Below are positions 16,509 through 20,530 of a stretch of DNA of 64,000 bases, one piece after another (the stretch's first letter is position 1; every line of letters begins with the position of its first letter). This DNA comes from an uncultured Dehalococcoidia bacterium (GTDB taxonomy: Bacteria > Chloroflexota > Dehalococcoidia > Lucifugimonadales > JADFKI01), in the NCBI GenBank assembly GCA_958295865.1, contig CATQHF010000005.1, positions 124,001-188,000 of the forward strand, given 5' to 3'. The notes beneath the pieces are model-generated. The model did no database searches and was not told where the DNA came from. It saw only the letters and a program-made list of their open reading frames with translations. The position numbers and the translations under genes were made by a program.

Positions 16509-17660
16509 TTATCCTAGGGTGACCGCTGTCATCTCGGACTCGACTTGCTTTACTTCTTCCATTAGGGCGTGGAGCATGTCTGCCTCGTCCACGATTCTAG
16601 CCTTCTTGCCTTTGCGGAAGATGATGGCGCGGCCGGCGCCGGCGGCGATGCCGACGTCGGCGTCCTTCGCTTCGCCGGGTCCGTTCACTTCGCAGCCCAT
16701 GACTGCCACCTTGATGGGCGTCTTGATGCGCCTCAGCAGCTCATCGACATCGTTGGCGAGCGCGCGCACATCTACATCAGCCCTGCCGCAACTCGGACAC
16801 GCCACCAGCGTCGTGCCTTCCTTGCGGAGTTCCAGCGCCTTCAAAATCTCCATACCCGTGTATATCTCTTCGCGCGGATCATCGCTCAGCGACACGCGGA
16901 TAGTGTCGCCAATACCCTGATACAGCAGCATGCCCAGCCCGATTGCGCTGCGGATGCTGCCCGCCTTTGCCGTGCCTGCCTCCGTTATGCCCAGGTGGAA
17001 CGGATACGGCACCATCTTGGCAAGCCGCTTGTACGCCTCCACGGTGGTGTCTATGTCGAATGCTTTCAGCGAAATCTTGATGAGGTCGAAGTCGAGGTCT
17101 TCGAGGATGCCAATCTCCCACAGGCCGGTCTCTACCATGTGATCGACTACCGTGTACTCGCCCTGGGACGCCTCGTCTGCCTTGGGCAGCATATTCACGC
17201 CGTCGGTGTGGCGTGAAAGCCCGCGCGTCATGCCAATCCCGCCCACAGGCGGCAGGCTGCCGAAGTTCACGCCGATGCGAATAGGCACTTGCCGCGCCTT
17301 AGCCTCGAGCACTACGGCTTCGACCTTCTCGCGGTCGCGGATGTTGCCGGGGTTCAGCCTGAGGCAGTCAACGCCGCTCTTGAGCGATTCCAGCGCAAGT
17401 TGATAGTGGAAGTGAATATCGGCGATGAGCGGAATGTTTATCTGCTTTTTGATGGCGGCGAGCGCCTTTGCCGCCTCCATGTCGGGGACGGCGCAGCGAA
17501 TAATCTCCCCGCCCGCGTCCTCTACTTCACGAATTTGCCGCACAGTGGCGGCGACATCGCGCGTATCCGTCTTGGTCATAGACTGCACGCTGATGGGCGC
17601 GTCGCCGCCAACCTTGACATCGCCGACATATATGGGCTTGGTCACCCGTCGCTTGTGCAT
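16509..17660 (-). CDS. ispG: 4-hydroxy-3-methylbut-2-enyl diphosphate synthase (MEP pathway)
   Basis: 383 residues. The TIM-barrel N-terminal part (PISVQSMTKTDTRDV, LRLNPGNI, GVNFGSLP) and C-terminal [4Fe-4S] part (ACPSCGRADVD and MGCEVNGPGEAKDADVGIA) supply the three cluster cysteines. It converts MEcPP to HMBPP. Length and motifs match the standard short bacterial form. Start chosen by GGAGC 8 bases upstream. It follows rseP by 19 bases, and dxr of the same pathway lies two genes upstream, so isoprenoid synthesis is clustered here. Confidence 0.95.
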   Translation of the reverse strand: MHKRRVTKPIYVGDVKVGGDAPISVQSMTKTDTRDVAATVRQIREVEDAGGEIIRCAVPDMEAAKALAAIKKQINIPLIADIHFHYQLALESLKSGVDCLRLNPGNIRDREKVEAVVLEAKARQVPIRIGVNFGSLPPVGGIGMTRGLSRHTDGVNMLPKADEASQGEYTVVDHMVETGLWEIGILEDLDFDLIKISLKAFDIDTTVEAYKRLAKMVPYPFHLGITEAGTAKAGSIRSAIGLGMLLYQGIGDTIRVSLSDDPREEIYTGMEILKALELRKEGTTLVACPSCGRADVDVRALANDVDELLRRIKTPIKVAVMGCEVNGPGEAKDADVGIAAGAGRAIIFRKGKKARIVDEADMLHALMEEVKQVESEMTAVTLG

Positions 17661-17679: not shown

Positions 17680-19383
17680 CTACGGAATCACGCTGTCGCC
17701 GTTTATCAGGCGAATAATATCGAAGTAGCTCACCACCACGATGAGACCAATCAGCACCAGAAAGCCTACCAGATGCGCCATGCCCTCGCGTCTTGGCGAA
17801 ATGGGCTTGCCGCCGCGCAAGAACTCGATGATGACGAACATCAGCCTGCCGCCGTCCAGCGCGGGGATGGGCAGCAGGTTTATGATGCCCAGGCTGATGC
17901 TGATGATTGCCGTCAGTTGCAGCAGGGGCGAGATGCCTATCTGCGCCACCTGCCCGGTTACGCGCGCTATGCCCACAGGGCCGGACAGTCCGGGGTCGGG
18001 GCCGCCCGATACCCAGCGCACTATGCTGCTGCGCGTTAGGGTCAGCACATCCCACATCTGCTGAAAAGACATCGGCACAGCCTGGAGCAGCGAGAAGTTG
18101 CGCTCGACCATCTGCGTGTCCACCGTGCCAATCATCACGCCCATCGCGCCCTGCGTCAGCGTGTCGCCAATCTGAAAATTGGCTTCGTAGCGCCGCGCAT
18201 CGGCGAGCGACACCTCACGCTCCGGGTCGGATACATGCTCAACCACCGTCAGATCAGGGGGCCTTACGCGCGGCACAAGCGTTACAATCTCTTCTCTGCC
18301 GGATGTGTACTGCGGCACCGACTCGCCCGTGATGAATGTGCCGCGCTGTATGGTCAACTCCGTCGGCGAGCCGAGGCTGGACATCACCTCTTGAATCAGG
18401 TCGGCGTGCGTGTCTAGTTCTTCCCCGTTCACGGCGACTATCGTATCGCCTGATGTTATGCCCACCCGTTCGGCCGGGGAGCCGGGCGCGACCGCCGTGA
18501 TTATCACTCTGCCGGTGGTGACATCGTGCGGCAGGGCGAACAGCGCGGTGAATATGATGACCGGCAGCAGCAGGTTCATGAACGACCCGGCGCACAGCAC
18601 AACCACGCGCTTCAGTACGCTTTGCTTGGCGAAACTGACCTCATTCGGCGCGGCGTCCCGCAGGCGGCGGTCGTAAGCCTCGCGCCTTTCGGGGTCGGAC
18701 AGCACCGCATATACATGCTCTACATAGCGCGTAAGCCGTCCGCGATTTTCCGGCCTCTTCTTCTCGATGATTTGAAGCAGTTCCTCGTAAGCCGCTTGAA
18801 GCTGTTCTTGATTGGCGTCCTGCTTCACCTCCATCAAGCCGTAGTAGTCGGGCGGCTCTGCCGGCTCCATCTCTACATCTTTTATCAGCTCATCGTACTT
18901 CGCGCGCTTCTCAGGATTGGACAGCTCGCTATACGCAATCTGCAAGGTATGGAGCATGGAATGACGCCGCTCCGGTTCCCTCAGATTGATGAGTTCCACA
19001 AGGTCGACGTATGCCTTGCGGATGTCCTCTTGCGATGCGGTGCGCGGCACGGCGAACAAGCCATAGAAGTCGGGGAGGTCGTGGCGACCGCGCACGAGGA
19101 TGACATTTTTGTCAGGCTTTTGGCGCACATACGCGCCCTCTTCGATGCCCTCGCCATGCTCGCCGACCATGCGAACGAAGCCGCCTAGGGGAATCCAGTT
19201 TATCGAGTAGATAGTGCCGCCCGGCGAAAATCGGAAGCCGATGAGTCGCGGGGGGAAGCCGAACCCGAATTCTTTGACCGTGATGCCGAACCACTTGGCA
19301 GTCAGAAAGTGACCCATCTCATGGATGAAGATGAGGAAGCCAAGCACGGGGAACACCATCAGCCAGGCCGGAAGTCCAAACAT
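17680..19383 (-). CDS. rseP: RseP-type site-2 protease with two inserted, HPD-less J-domain-like modules
   Basis: 567 residues from the ATG at 19383, with GGAGGT 8 bases upstream. Order: TM1 with zinc motif HEMGH (21-25); a membrane re-entrant region SINWIPLGGFVRM (about 60-72); an insertion of about 165 residues; TM2 KRVVVLCAGSFMNLLLP (about 258-283); one PDZ domain (about 288-375); and TM3/4 with NLLPIPALDGG (502-512), supplying the third metal ligand. The insertion holds two J-domain-like repeats: DFYGLFAVPRTASQEDIRKA to LSNPEKRAKYDE (about 105-165), and DYYGLMEVKQDANQEQLQAA to LSDPERREAYDR (about 179-239). Neither has the HPD tripeptide needed to stimulate Hsp70. Standard RseP has only a short loop here. 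The protease core cleaves membrane proteins within the bilayer; the role of the insertion is unknown. Located 4 bases after dxr. Confidence 0.92.
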   Translation of the reverse strand: MFGLPAWLMVFPVLGFLIFIHEMGHFLTAKWFGITVKEFGFGFPPRLIGFRFSPGGTIYSINWIPLGGFVRMVGEHGEGIEEGAYVRQKPDKNVILVRGRHDLPDFYGLFAVPRTASQEDIRKAYVDLVELINLREPERRHSMLHTLQIAYSELSNPEKRAKYDELIKDVEMEPAEPPDYYGLMEVKQDANQEQLQAAYEELLQIIEKKRPENRGRLTRYVEHVYAVLSDPERREAYDRRLRDAAPNEVSFAKQSVLKRVVVLCAGSFMNLLLPVIIFTALFALPHDVTTGRVIITAVAPGSPAERVGITSGDTIVAVNGEELDTHADLIQEVMSSLGSPTELTIQRGTFITGESVPQYTSGREEIVTLVPRVRPPDLTVVEHVSDPEREVSLADARRYEANFQIGDTLTQGAMGVMIGTVDTQMVERNFSLLQAVPMSFQQMWDVLTLTRSSIVRWVSGGPDPGLSGPVGIARVTGQVAQIGISPLLQLTAIISISLGIINLLPIPALDGGRLMFVIIEFLRGGKPISPRREGMAHLVGFLVLIGLIVVVSYFDIIRLINGDSVIP

Positions 19384-19387
19384 GCGC

Positions 19388-20530
19388 CTACACCTCCACC
19401 GTGCCATTCGCGCGCTGTCTTGCGGCGTCGGCGGCATCCATCGTATCTTGCAACGACGGTTCTTCGATGTTTCTATGTCCGCGCAGCGATTCCGCAATCA
19501 GCGCGGGAATTTCCATAAAGCTAATTTTGCCGTCCAGAAAGAGCGCGACCGCCGCGTCGTCCGCGCCGCAGAGCGCAGCCGCCCATGTGCCGCCCCGACG
19601 CGCCACTTGGATAGCCAAGCCGAAGCAGGGGTATCGCTCCGGCTCCAGGCGCTCGAAACTGAGCGCGCCCGTCGCCACGGGGTCGAAGCGGGTTACGCTG
19701 TCGTTGGGGACGCGGCGCGGGTAGAACAGCGCGTACTGTATCGGCAGGCGCATGTCCGGCGGGCTTATCTGCGCCTTTACCGAGCCGTCCACGAACTCCA
19801 CCATGGAGTGAATCATGCTCTGCGGATGGATGACCACCTCGATGTCGTCCCAGGGCACGCCAAACAGCCAGTGCGCCTCTATCACCTCGAACGCCTTGTT
19901 CATCATCGTCGCCGAATCGACGGTTATCTTCGCGCCCATGCGCCAGGTGGGATGCTGCAACGCCTGTTCATGGGTAACGTCCGGGAGTTTATCAATCGGT
20001 GTGTCGCGGAACGCTCCGCCCGACGCCGTGATGATAAGCCTGGAAACGGGTTTTTCTTCACCGCGCAGGCATTGCCAGATGGCGTTAGGCTCGCTGTCCA
20101 GCGGCAGCAGGGCTACATCGCGCTCGCGCGCCGCCTGCGTGAGCAGTTCTCCAGAGATTACCACCGCCTCCTTGTTCGCCAGCGCGATGTGCTTGCCCGC
20201 CTCGATGCCCGCGAAAGTGGCAGGCACGGCGACATCGCCCGTTGTCGCCGCAACCACGATGTCCACATCCGCGCTGACCGCCAGGTTCTCCATGTCGCAG
20301 TCGGCGCAACCGTAGTCGCCGAGAAACGCCTTCTCCGACGGGCTGCCCTGACACGACGCCAGCGCGGGCCGGAACTCACGAATTTGCCGCTTCAGCAGCG
20401 CGTGATTTCTCCCTGCCGCAAGCCCCACGACATTGAAGTCGTCAGGGTATGAGCGCACGATGTCCAGCGTCTGTCTGCCTACCGAGCCGGTGGAGCCTAG
20501 GACAGCAAGCCCTTTTGTTGCACTTCCCAT
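19388..20530 (-). CDS. dxr: 1-deoxy-D-xylulose 5-phosphate reductoisomerase
   Basis: 380 residues from the ATG at 20530 (MGSATKGLAVLGSTGSVG); the open frame extends further upstream but inside cdsA. GSTGSVG binds NADPH; LLPLDSEPNAIWQCL, TASGGAFRDTP, TVDSATMMNKAFEVIEAHWL and PQSMIHSMVEFVDGS are metal and substrate-binding blocks. It catalyses the first committed step of the MEP pathway. It overlaps the end of cdsA by 34 bases and is followed 4 bases later by rseP, a tight operon with expected translational coupling. Confidence 0.95.
   Translation of the reverse strand: MGSATKGLAVLGSTGSVGRQTLDIVRSYPDDFNVVGLAAGRNHALLKRQIREFRPALASCQGSPSEKAFLGDYGCADCDMENLAVSADVDIVVAATTGDVAVPATFAGIEAGKHIALANKEAVVISGELLTQAARERDVALLPLDSEPNAIWQCLRGEEKPVSRLIITASGGAFRDTPIDKLPDVTHEQALQHPTWRMGAKITVDSATMMNKAFEVIEAHWLFGVPWDDIEVVIHPQSMIHSMVEFVDGSVKAQISPPDMRLPIQYALFYPRRVPNDSVTRFDPVATGALSFERLEPERYPCFGLAIQVARRGGTWAAALCGADDAAVALFLDGKISFMEIPALIAESLRGHRNIEEPSLQDTMDAADAARQRANGTVEV

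Follow-up and report, generated by a model that had tools for sequence, protein, structure and literature searches.

The window (the whole stretch of 64,000 nucleotides that was analysed, from an uncultured Dehalococcoidia bacterium) carries a gene for an RseP-type protease in the gene order usual for rseP, tsf-pyrH-frr-uppS-cdsA-dxr-rseP-ispG-proS. Within the product, two domains resembling the J domain of DnaJ (here J1 and J2) interrupt the cytoplasmic loop that follows the membrane-reentrant beta-loop and precedes the second transmembrane helix (TM2). The features, all on the minus strand and given in the order in which they are read, are the following.

19391..20500, minus strand: dxr, the upstream neighbour, 4 bases before the rseP start
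17680..19383, minus strand: rseP, 567 amino acids, encoding a site-2 intramembrane metalloprotease with two J-like domains (open reading frame and family matches)
19309..19323, minus strand: HEMGH zinc motif, residues 21-25, in TM1 (helix 6-31; sequence and model)
19168..19278, minus strand: membrane-reentrant beta-loop, strands 36-51 and 58-72 (alignment and AlphaFold2 model)
19075..19152, minus strand: family-level loop, residues 78-103, with a conserved [KR]NV(I/V) motif, present in both sister genera without J domains
18892..19071, minus strand: J1, HPD-less J domain, residues 105-164 (PF00226, AlphaFold2 model, fold match)
18979..18987, minus strand: N133-L134-R135 of J1, in place of HPD (H33-P34-D35 of Escherichia coli DnaJ), invariant in five species
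18670..18849, minus strand: J2, HPD-less J domain, residues 179-238 (PF00226, AlphaFold2 model, fold match)
18757..18765, minus strand: E207-K208-K209, at the HPD position of J2, variable between species
18535..18618, minus strand: TM2, helix 256-283 (AlphaFold2 model)
18340..18519, minus strand: single PDZ core, residues 289-348 (Pfam match)
17848..17880, minus strand: NLLPIPALDGG, residues 502-512, the third zinc ligand motif (sequence and alignment of 27 RsePs)
16509..17660, minus strand: ispG/gcpE, the downstream neighbour

The rseP open reading frame is free of stops from an ATG at 19383. The frame is open further 5' (19384-19497, where a TTG start would give 605 amino acids) and there runs into dxr, but use of this longer form is improbable, since the RseP proteins of all five species examined in the genus fit one another best when residue 1 (ATG, GTG or TTG) is taken as the start.

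Is this still a protease? The conserved parts of a site-2 protease (HExxH, PDZ and NxxPxxxLDGG), which the initial annotation had taken to be intact, are all present, and the protein scores well over the cut-offs of two family models: 208.2 bits against 147.55 for TIGR00054 ('RIP metalloprotease RseP', NCBIfam), and 179.9 bits against 27.2 (5.9e-53) for Peptidase_M50 of Pfam, whose match extends over residues 13-546 and is found on both flanks of the insertion. PDZ_6 (Pfam) matches residues 294-347, between TM2 and TM3 (3.6e-14). The equivalog cut-off of 477 for PRK10779, the E. coli-type sigma-E protease, was not reached (141.7 bits). Across 27 aligned RsePs, H21, E22, G24 and H25 of the zinc motif and L509-D510-G511-G512 are invariant. 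The full-length AlphaFold2 model (mean pLDDT 79) superposes on the solved RseP structures of E. coli, Aquifex and Kangiella, and also on the deposited integrative RasP–EcsA model. The gene is thus clearly that of an intact RseP-type site-2 protease, with predicted proteolytic activity. It shares with RseP/RasP (MEROPS M50, TIGR00054) the HExxH motif in TM1, the membrane-reentrant beta-loop, the PDZ domain, the NxxPxPxLDGG motif and the gene order, but differs in having one PDZ domain rather than a tandem pair, and about 167 extra cytoplasmic residues containing the two J-like domains. Each genome of the genus has a single RseP-type protein; the other M50 match in the window genome is one small protein of about 226 amino acids.

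The insertion had been described as some 165 residues carrying two J-domain-like repeats, and its position and size hold (about 167 residues compared with the 21-residue loop normal for the order), although the J pair itself (residues 105-241) accounts for only about 135 of them, the remainder being an older, family-level linker. The repeats themselves are borne out. PF00226 (DnaJ) matched the protein at 1.7e-16 in two stretches, the better of which (105-164) spans the whole profile, and in a whole-genome scan J1 and J2 each exceeded the Pfam cut-off, with 38.0 and 34.3 bits respectively over profile positions 1-63. In the AlphaFold2 model each half comprises helices I to IV, of which the first is short and the second long, whereas a prediction without J-like helices had been named at the outset as a possible refutation. 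Residues 100-171 (J1) of this model superpose on the J domain of CbpA (3ucs_C; Z 11.1, 2.2 Å over 72 residues), and residues 177-246 (J2) on the DnaJB1 fusion 4wb7_A (Z 11.5, 1.8 Å over 70 residues); the J region was also matched to 9grx_U, of the chloroplast NDH supercomplex. The J pair is a low-confidence part of the prediction (pLDDT 62 when modelled alone and, in the full-length model, block values of about 64-80 across J1), and Foldseek with the J pair model alone returned nothing at E ≤ 0.001, although J domains made up the majority of its best hits; the longer model with VIA-align gave the clearer J-fold matches. The Z values would be insufficient by themselves, but superposition and PF00226 matches jointly make the predicted J fold of both domains secure. 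The J domains of CbpA and DnaJ are the closest to them, both in sequence (33-38% with DnaJ of the hosts) and in fold (3ucs, 5nro); J1 and J2 differ from these in lacking HPD and a basic helix II, and in being set in a loop of a protease.

The insertion occurs in all five species of the genus examined, in proteins that are 78-80% identical and come from five separate assemblies, so the assembly chimera contemplated in the initial annotation as an alternative, absent from all relatives, can be rejected. The same annotation had proposed a survey of RseP orthologues across Chloroflexota, and here the outcome was negative: the insertion proved to be confined to the one genus, a J1–J2 profile detecting it nowhere else in 250 genomes of the order, 393 of the class and 400 of the phylum (overlapping samples). 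Outside the genus the profile matched a single J-like half in other proteins, none of them shown as RseP; the readable matches were mostly ordinary HPD-bearing J proteins, and two (L074 and L116) gave no reading. A contig scan with eight-residue patterns gave one insertion-bearing record, JAGGDZ010000284, which is almost certainly the same contig as one already included (G004:C30); among the scan's 17 other matches, those that could be read resembled DnaJ and kept HPD (no reading was obtained for L035 and L047). In one further RseP of the order (L026, G013:C55), a different insertion of some 70-80 residues separates the two strands of the membrane-reentrant beta-loop.

From the GE that follows the re-entrant strand to TM2, the loop is 188 residues long in the window genus, 54-55 in the sister genera and about 21 in the rest of the order. 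The sister-genus loops (L006, L007 and L008) have a conserved [KR]NVV(Y/L) motif and an acidic, proline-rich linker, with no J domain, and the J pair of the window genus is inserted just after a motif of the [KR]NVV type. In the RseP tree the genus forms one group and the sister genera another, together making one clade (100/97). From this grouping, the simplest history would be that the loop was lengthened in an ancestor of the family and that a J domain was acquired once, later, in the genus; a gain of J followed by its loss is possible, but would need one more step. In a tree of J domains, J1 and J2 of the five species fall together, apart from 21 J domains of the same bacterial family (100/99), and the J1 sequences make up one group (99/93). 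This suggests that J1 and J2 probably arose from one J domain by tandem duplication before the genus diversified, within a loop that would already have been lengthened in the family. The J1/J2 stem is long, and the tree singles out no host J protein as the source.

The two domains have since fared very differently. J1 is invariant at 50 of its 60 positions across the five species and J2 at 22 of 60, and mean dN increases from 0.039 for the catalytic part (TM1 and membrane-reentrant beta-loop) through 0.052 for J1 and 0.13 for the PDZ core to 0.238 for J2. The dN/dS ratios (about 0.03 for J1 and 0.10 for J2) are approximate, synonymous sites being near-saturated for most pairs; selection on J1 is firmly purifying, and J2 drifts yet is still under purifying selection. 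Compared over the same three species, identity is 91.1% for J1, 91.4% for the J domain of DnaJ and 88.9% for that of CbpA, so that J1 is as strictly constrained as the J domain of the housekeeping DnaJ. The J pair is therefore probably functional. The limitation of the insertion to one genus might suggest a non-functional decoration or an assembly artefact, but such a reading is highly improbable and already contradicted both by these ratios and by the same structure's presence in five assemblies despite near-saturated synonymous divergence. The conserved part of J1 takes in helices II and III together with the loop that would have carried HPD, and this pattern suggests a binding surface.

Might the J domains act in the ordinary way, recruiting and activating DnaK at RseP? 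The fold is there, and the host encodes DnaK, along with DnaJ and a CbpA-like protein. However, HPD, which the initial annotation had read as missing from both repeats, was found in none of the ten J copies (J1 and J2 of five species), its place being taken by NLR in J1 and by variable residues in J2. Moreover, K26 and R27 of DnaJ, which contact DnaK in the 5NRO complex, correspond to V and D/E in J1, and to E/Q/A and D/E in J2, across the five species; of R22, K26 and R27, J1 retains only the R22 position. Helix II bears a net charge of –2 in J1 and of –3 to –7 in J2, compared with 0 in the hosts' DnaJ and +3 or +4 in their CbpA-like proteins. With HPD absent and the basic residues of helix II lost or reversed, canonical activation of Hsp70 by J1 or J2 appears very unlikely, on stronger grounds than had originally been offered for expecting none, and a DnaK-recruiting role of the ordinary kind is scarcely credible. 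J-like (type IV) proteins are defined by a J fold without HPD (PMC9407819; PMC8605242), a description that fits J1 and J2.

Where, then, would these domains lie in relation to the active site? The re-entrant loop of E. coli RseP dips into the membrane from the cytoplasm, and its edge strand, G67-V70, binds the transmembrane segment of the substrate (PMC4597795, PMC10024687). The window RseP has an edge strand G67-G68-F69-V70 with the same numbering, and J1 begins about 35 residues after it. By homology with this topology and numbering, the J pair should lie at the active-site mouth, on the side that faces the cytoplasm.

We consider it somewhat more probable than its opposite that J1 serves as a docking or regulatory module on the only RseP of the genus, with J2 as a second arm or spacer under less constraint; the partner and its effect are conjectural. 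In such a scheme the conserved surface of J1 (helices II and III, with the loop that would have carried HPD) would bind one specific cytoplasmic partner, which would be held beside the substrate-clamping strand, so that access would be regulated, or a substrate or chaperone recruited. HPD-less J-like proteins are known to bind partners in chloroplast membrane complexes (PMC9407819), and in Pam16 (Magmas) DKS replaces HPD, and the protein, itself unable to stimulate Hsp70, forms a pair with a J protein and curbs the stimulation of Hsp70 by it (PMC8605242). After the Pam16–Pam18 model, the partner might be a true J protein (DnaJ or CbpA) or DnaK, and by analogy with Pam16 either DnaJ or CbpA would be a reasonable candidate for J1. 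It is doubtful, though conceivable, that a Pam16-like pairing of J1 with DnaJ or CbpA (or with DnaK) sets the activity of the protease, so that Hsp70 load gates proteolysis. The coupling of regulated membrane proteolysis to the state of cytoplasmic proteins, which the initial annotation had proposed, might come about in some such way.

Against docking, the drift of J2 (64% identity) means that the J pair is not uniformly constrained, and the strong conservation of J1 might stem from contact with the protease core of the same molecule instead of with a partner from outside. The main rival reading, which we regard as rather unlikely, is a structural brace or spacer without a partner. On this view the J domains would pack against RseP at its cytoplasmic face, or J1 against J2, and would only stabilize or sterically gate the active-site entrance. 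It agrees with an insertion directly after the membrane-reentrant beta-loop, with the weak constraint on J2, as expected of a spacer, and with the occurrence of J-like structural subunits in other membrane complexes (the fold match to chloroplast NDH, 9grx_U; PMC9407819). It accounts less well for the conservation of J1 at most positions, including the former HPD loop, which exceeds what folding alone usually requires and is like that of a J domain with an obligatory partner.

Could the J pair instead dock substrates, or released cytoplasmic fragments, directly, whether for selection or for hand-over to a cytoplasmic protease? To our knowledge, J domains proper are not the substrate-binding domains of DnaJ, and no candidate substrate was found in the window genome; direct docking therefore seems improbable, even though the J pair would lie beside the edge strand that grips the substrate's transmembrane segment (PMC4597795, PMC10024687). 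An anti-sigma factor was considered as a substrate and set aside: the genome's only zf-HC2 match, of about 90 amino acids, has no evident transmembrane segment.

Among known systems, Pam16/Tim16 (Magmas) resembles the docking module that we favour in combining an HPD-less J fold (in the window J pair, a predicted one) with membrane association and no activation of Hsp70 (PMC8605242), but it is a separate protein of eukaryotic mitochondria and belongs to another sequence family; no Pam16 model was matched by the window RseP in a Pfam scan with E up to 10 in which PF00226 was listed. The HPD-less J-like modules of chloroplast ARC6, CPP1 and NdhU/CRRL likewise have protein-binding or structural roles at membranes (PMC9407819), in host proteins that are unrelated and include no protease.

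Site-2 proteases with an accessory cytoplasmic domain or partner include SpoIVFB and those with CBS domains. In having such an accessory these, and RasP–EcsA (from the title of PDB 9a6w), resemble the window protein, the accessory there being CBS domains or an ABC ATPase, and here J-like domains. No described site-2 protease, RseP or M50 protein with a J or DnaJ domain emerged from a limited literature search that covered few subscription journals, which agrees with the initial view that the architecture was new; as far as we found, the J-pair RseP is a lineage-fixed and apparently undescribed form of a well-known protease. RseP is a general bacterial intramembrane protease, usually seen as an enzyme of envelope stress, and its control is usually placed in the periplasm, via PDZ domains. 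That a lineage has fixed a strictly conserved, chaperone-derived domain on the cytoplasmic side, next to the strand that clamps the substrate, suggests that RseP there receives a second control input, from the cytoplasm.

Finally, we draw attention to some other J proteins. Elsewhere in the same genome, outside the window, J domains are joined to ankyrin-like repeats at two loci (L063, G000:C5:59646, and L065, G000:C4:63637), in one of which HSD replaces HPD, and a J-domain reading frame of 98 amino acids (L064) lies near L065. In another Chloroflexota genome (L087, G471:C36), an HPD-bearing J domain is fused to an apparent von Willebrand A-type domain.
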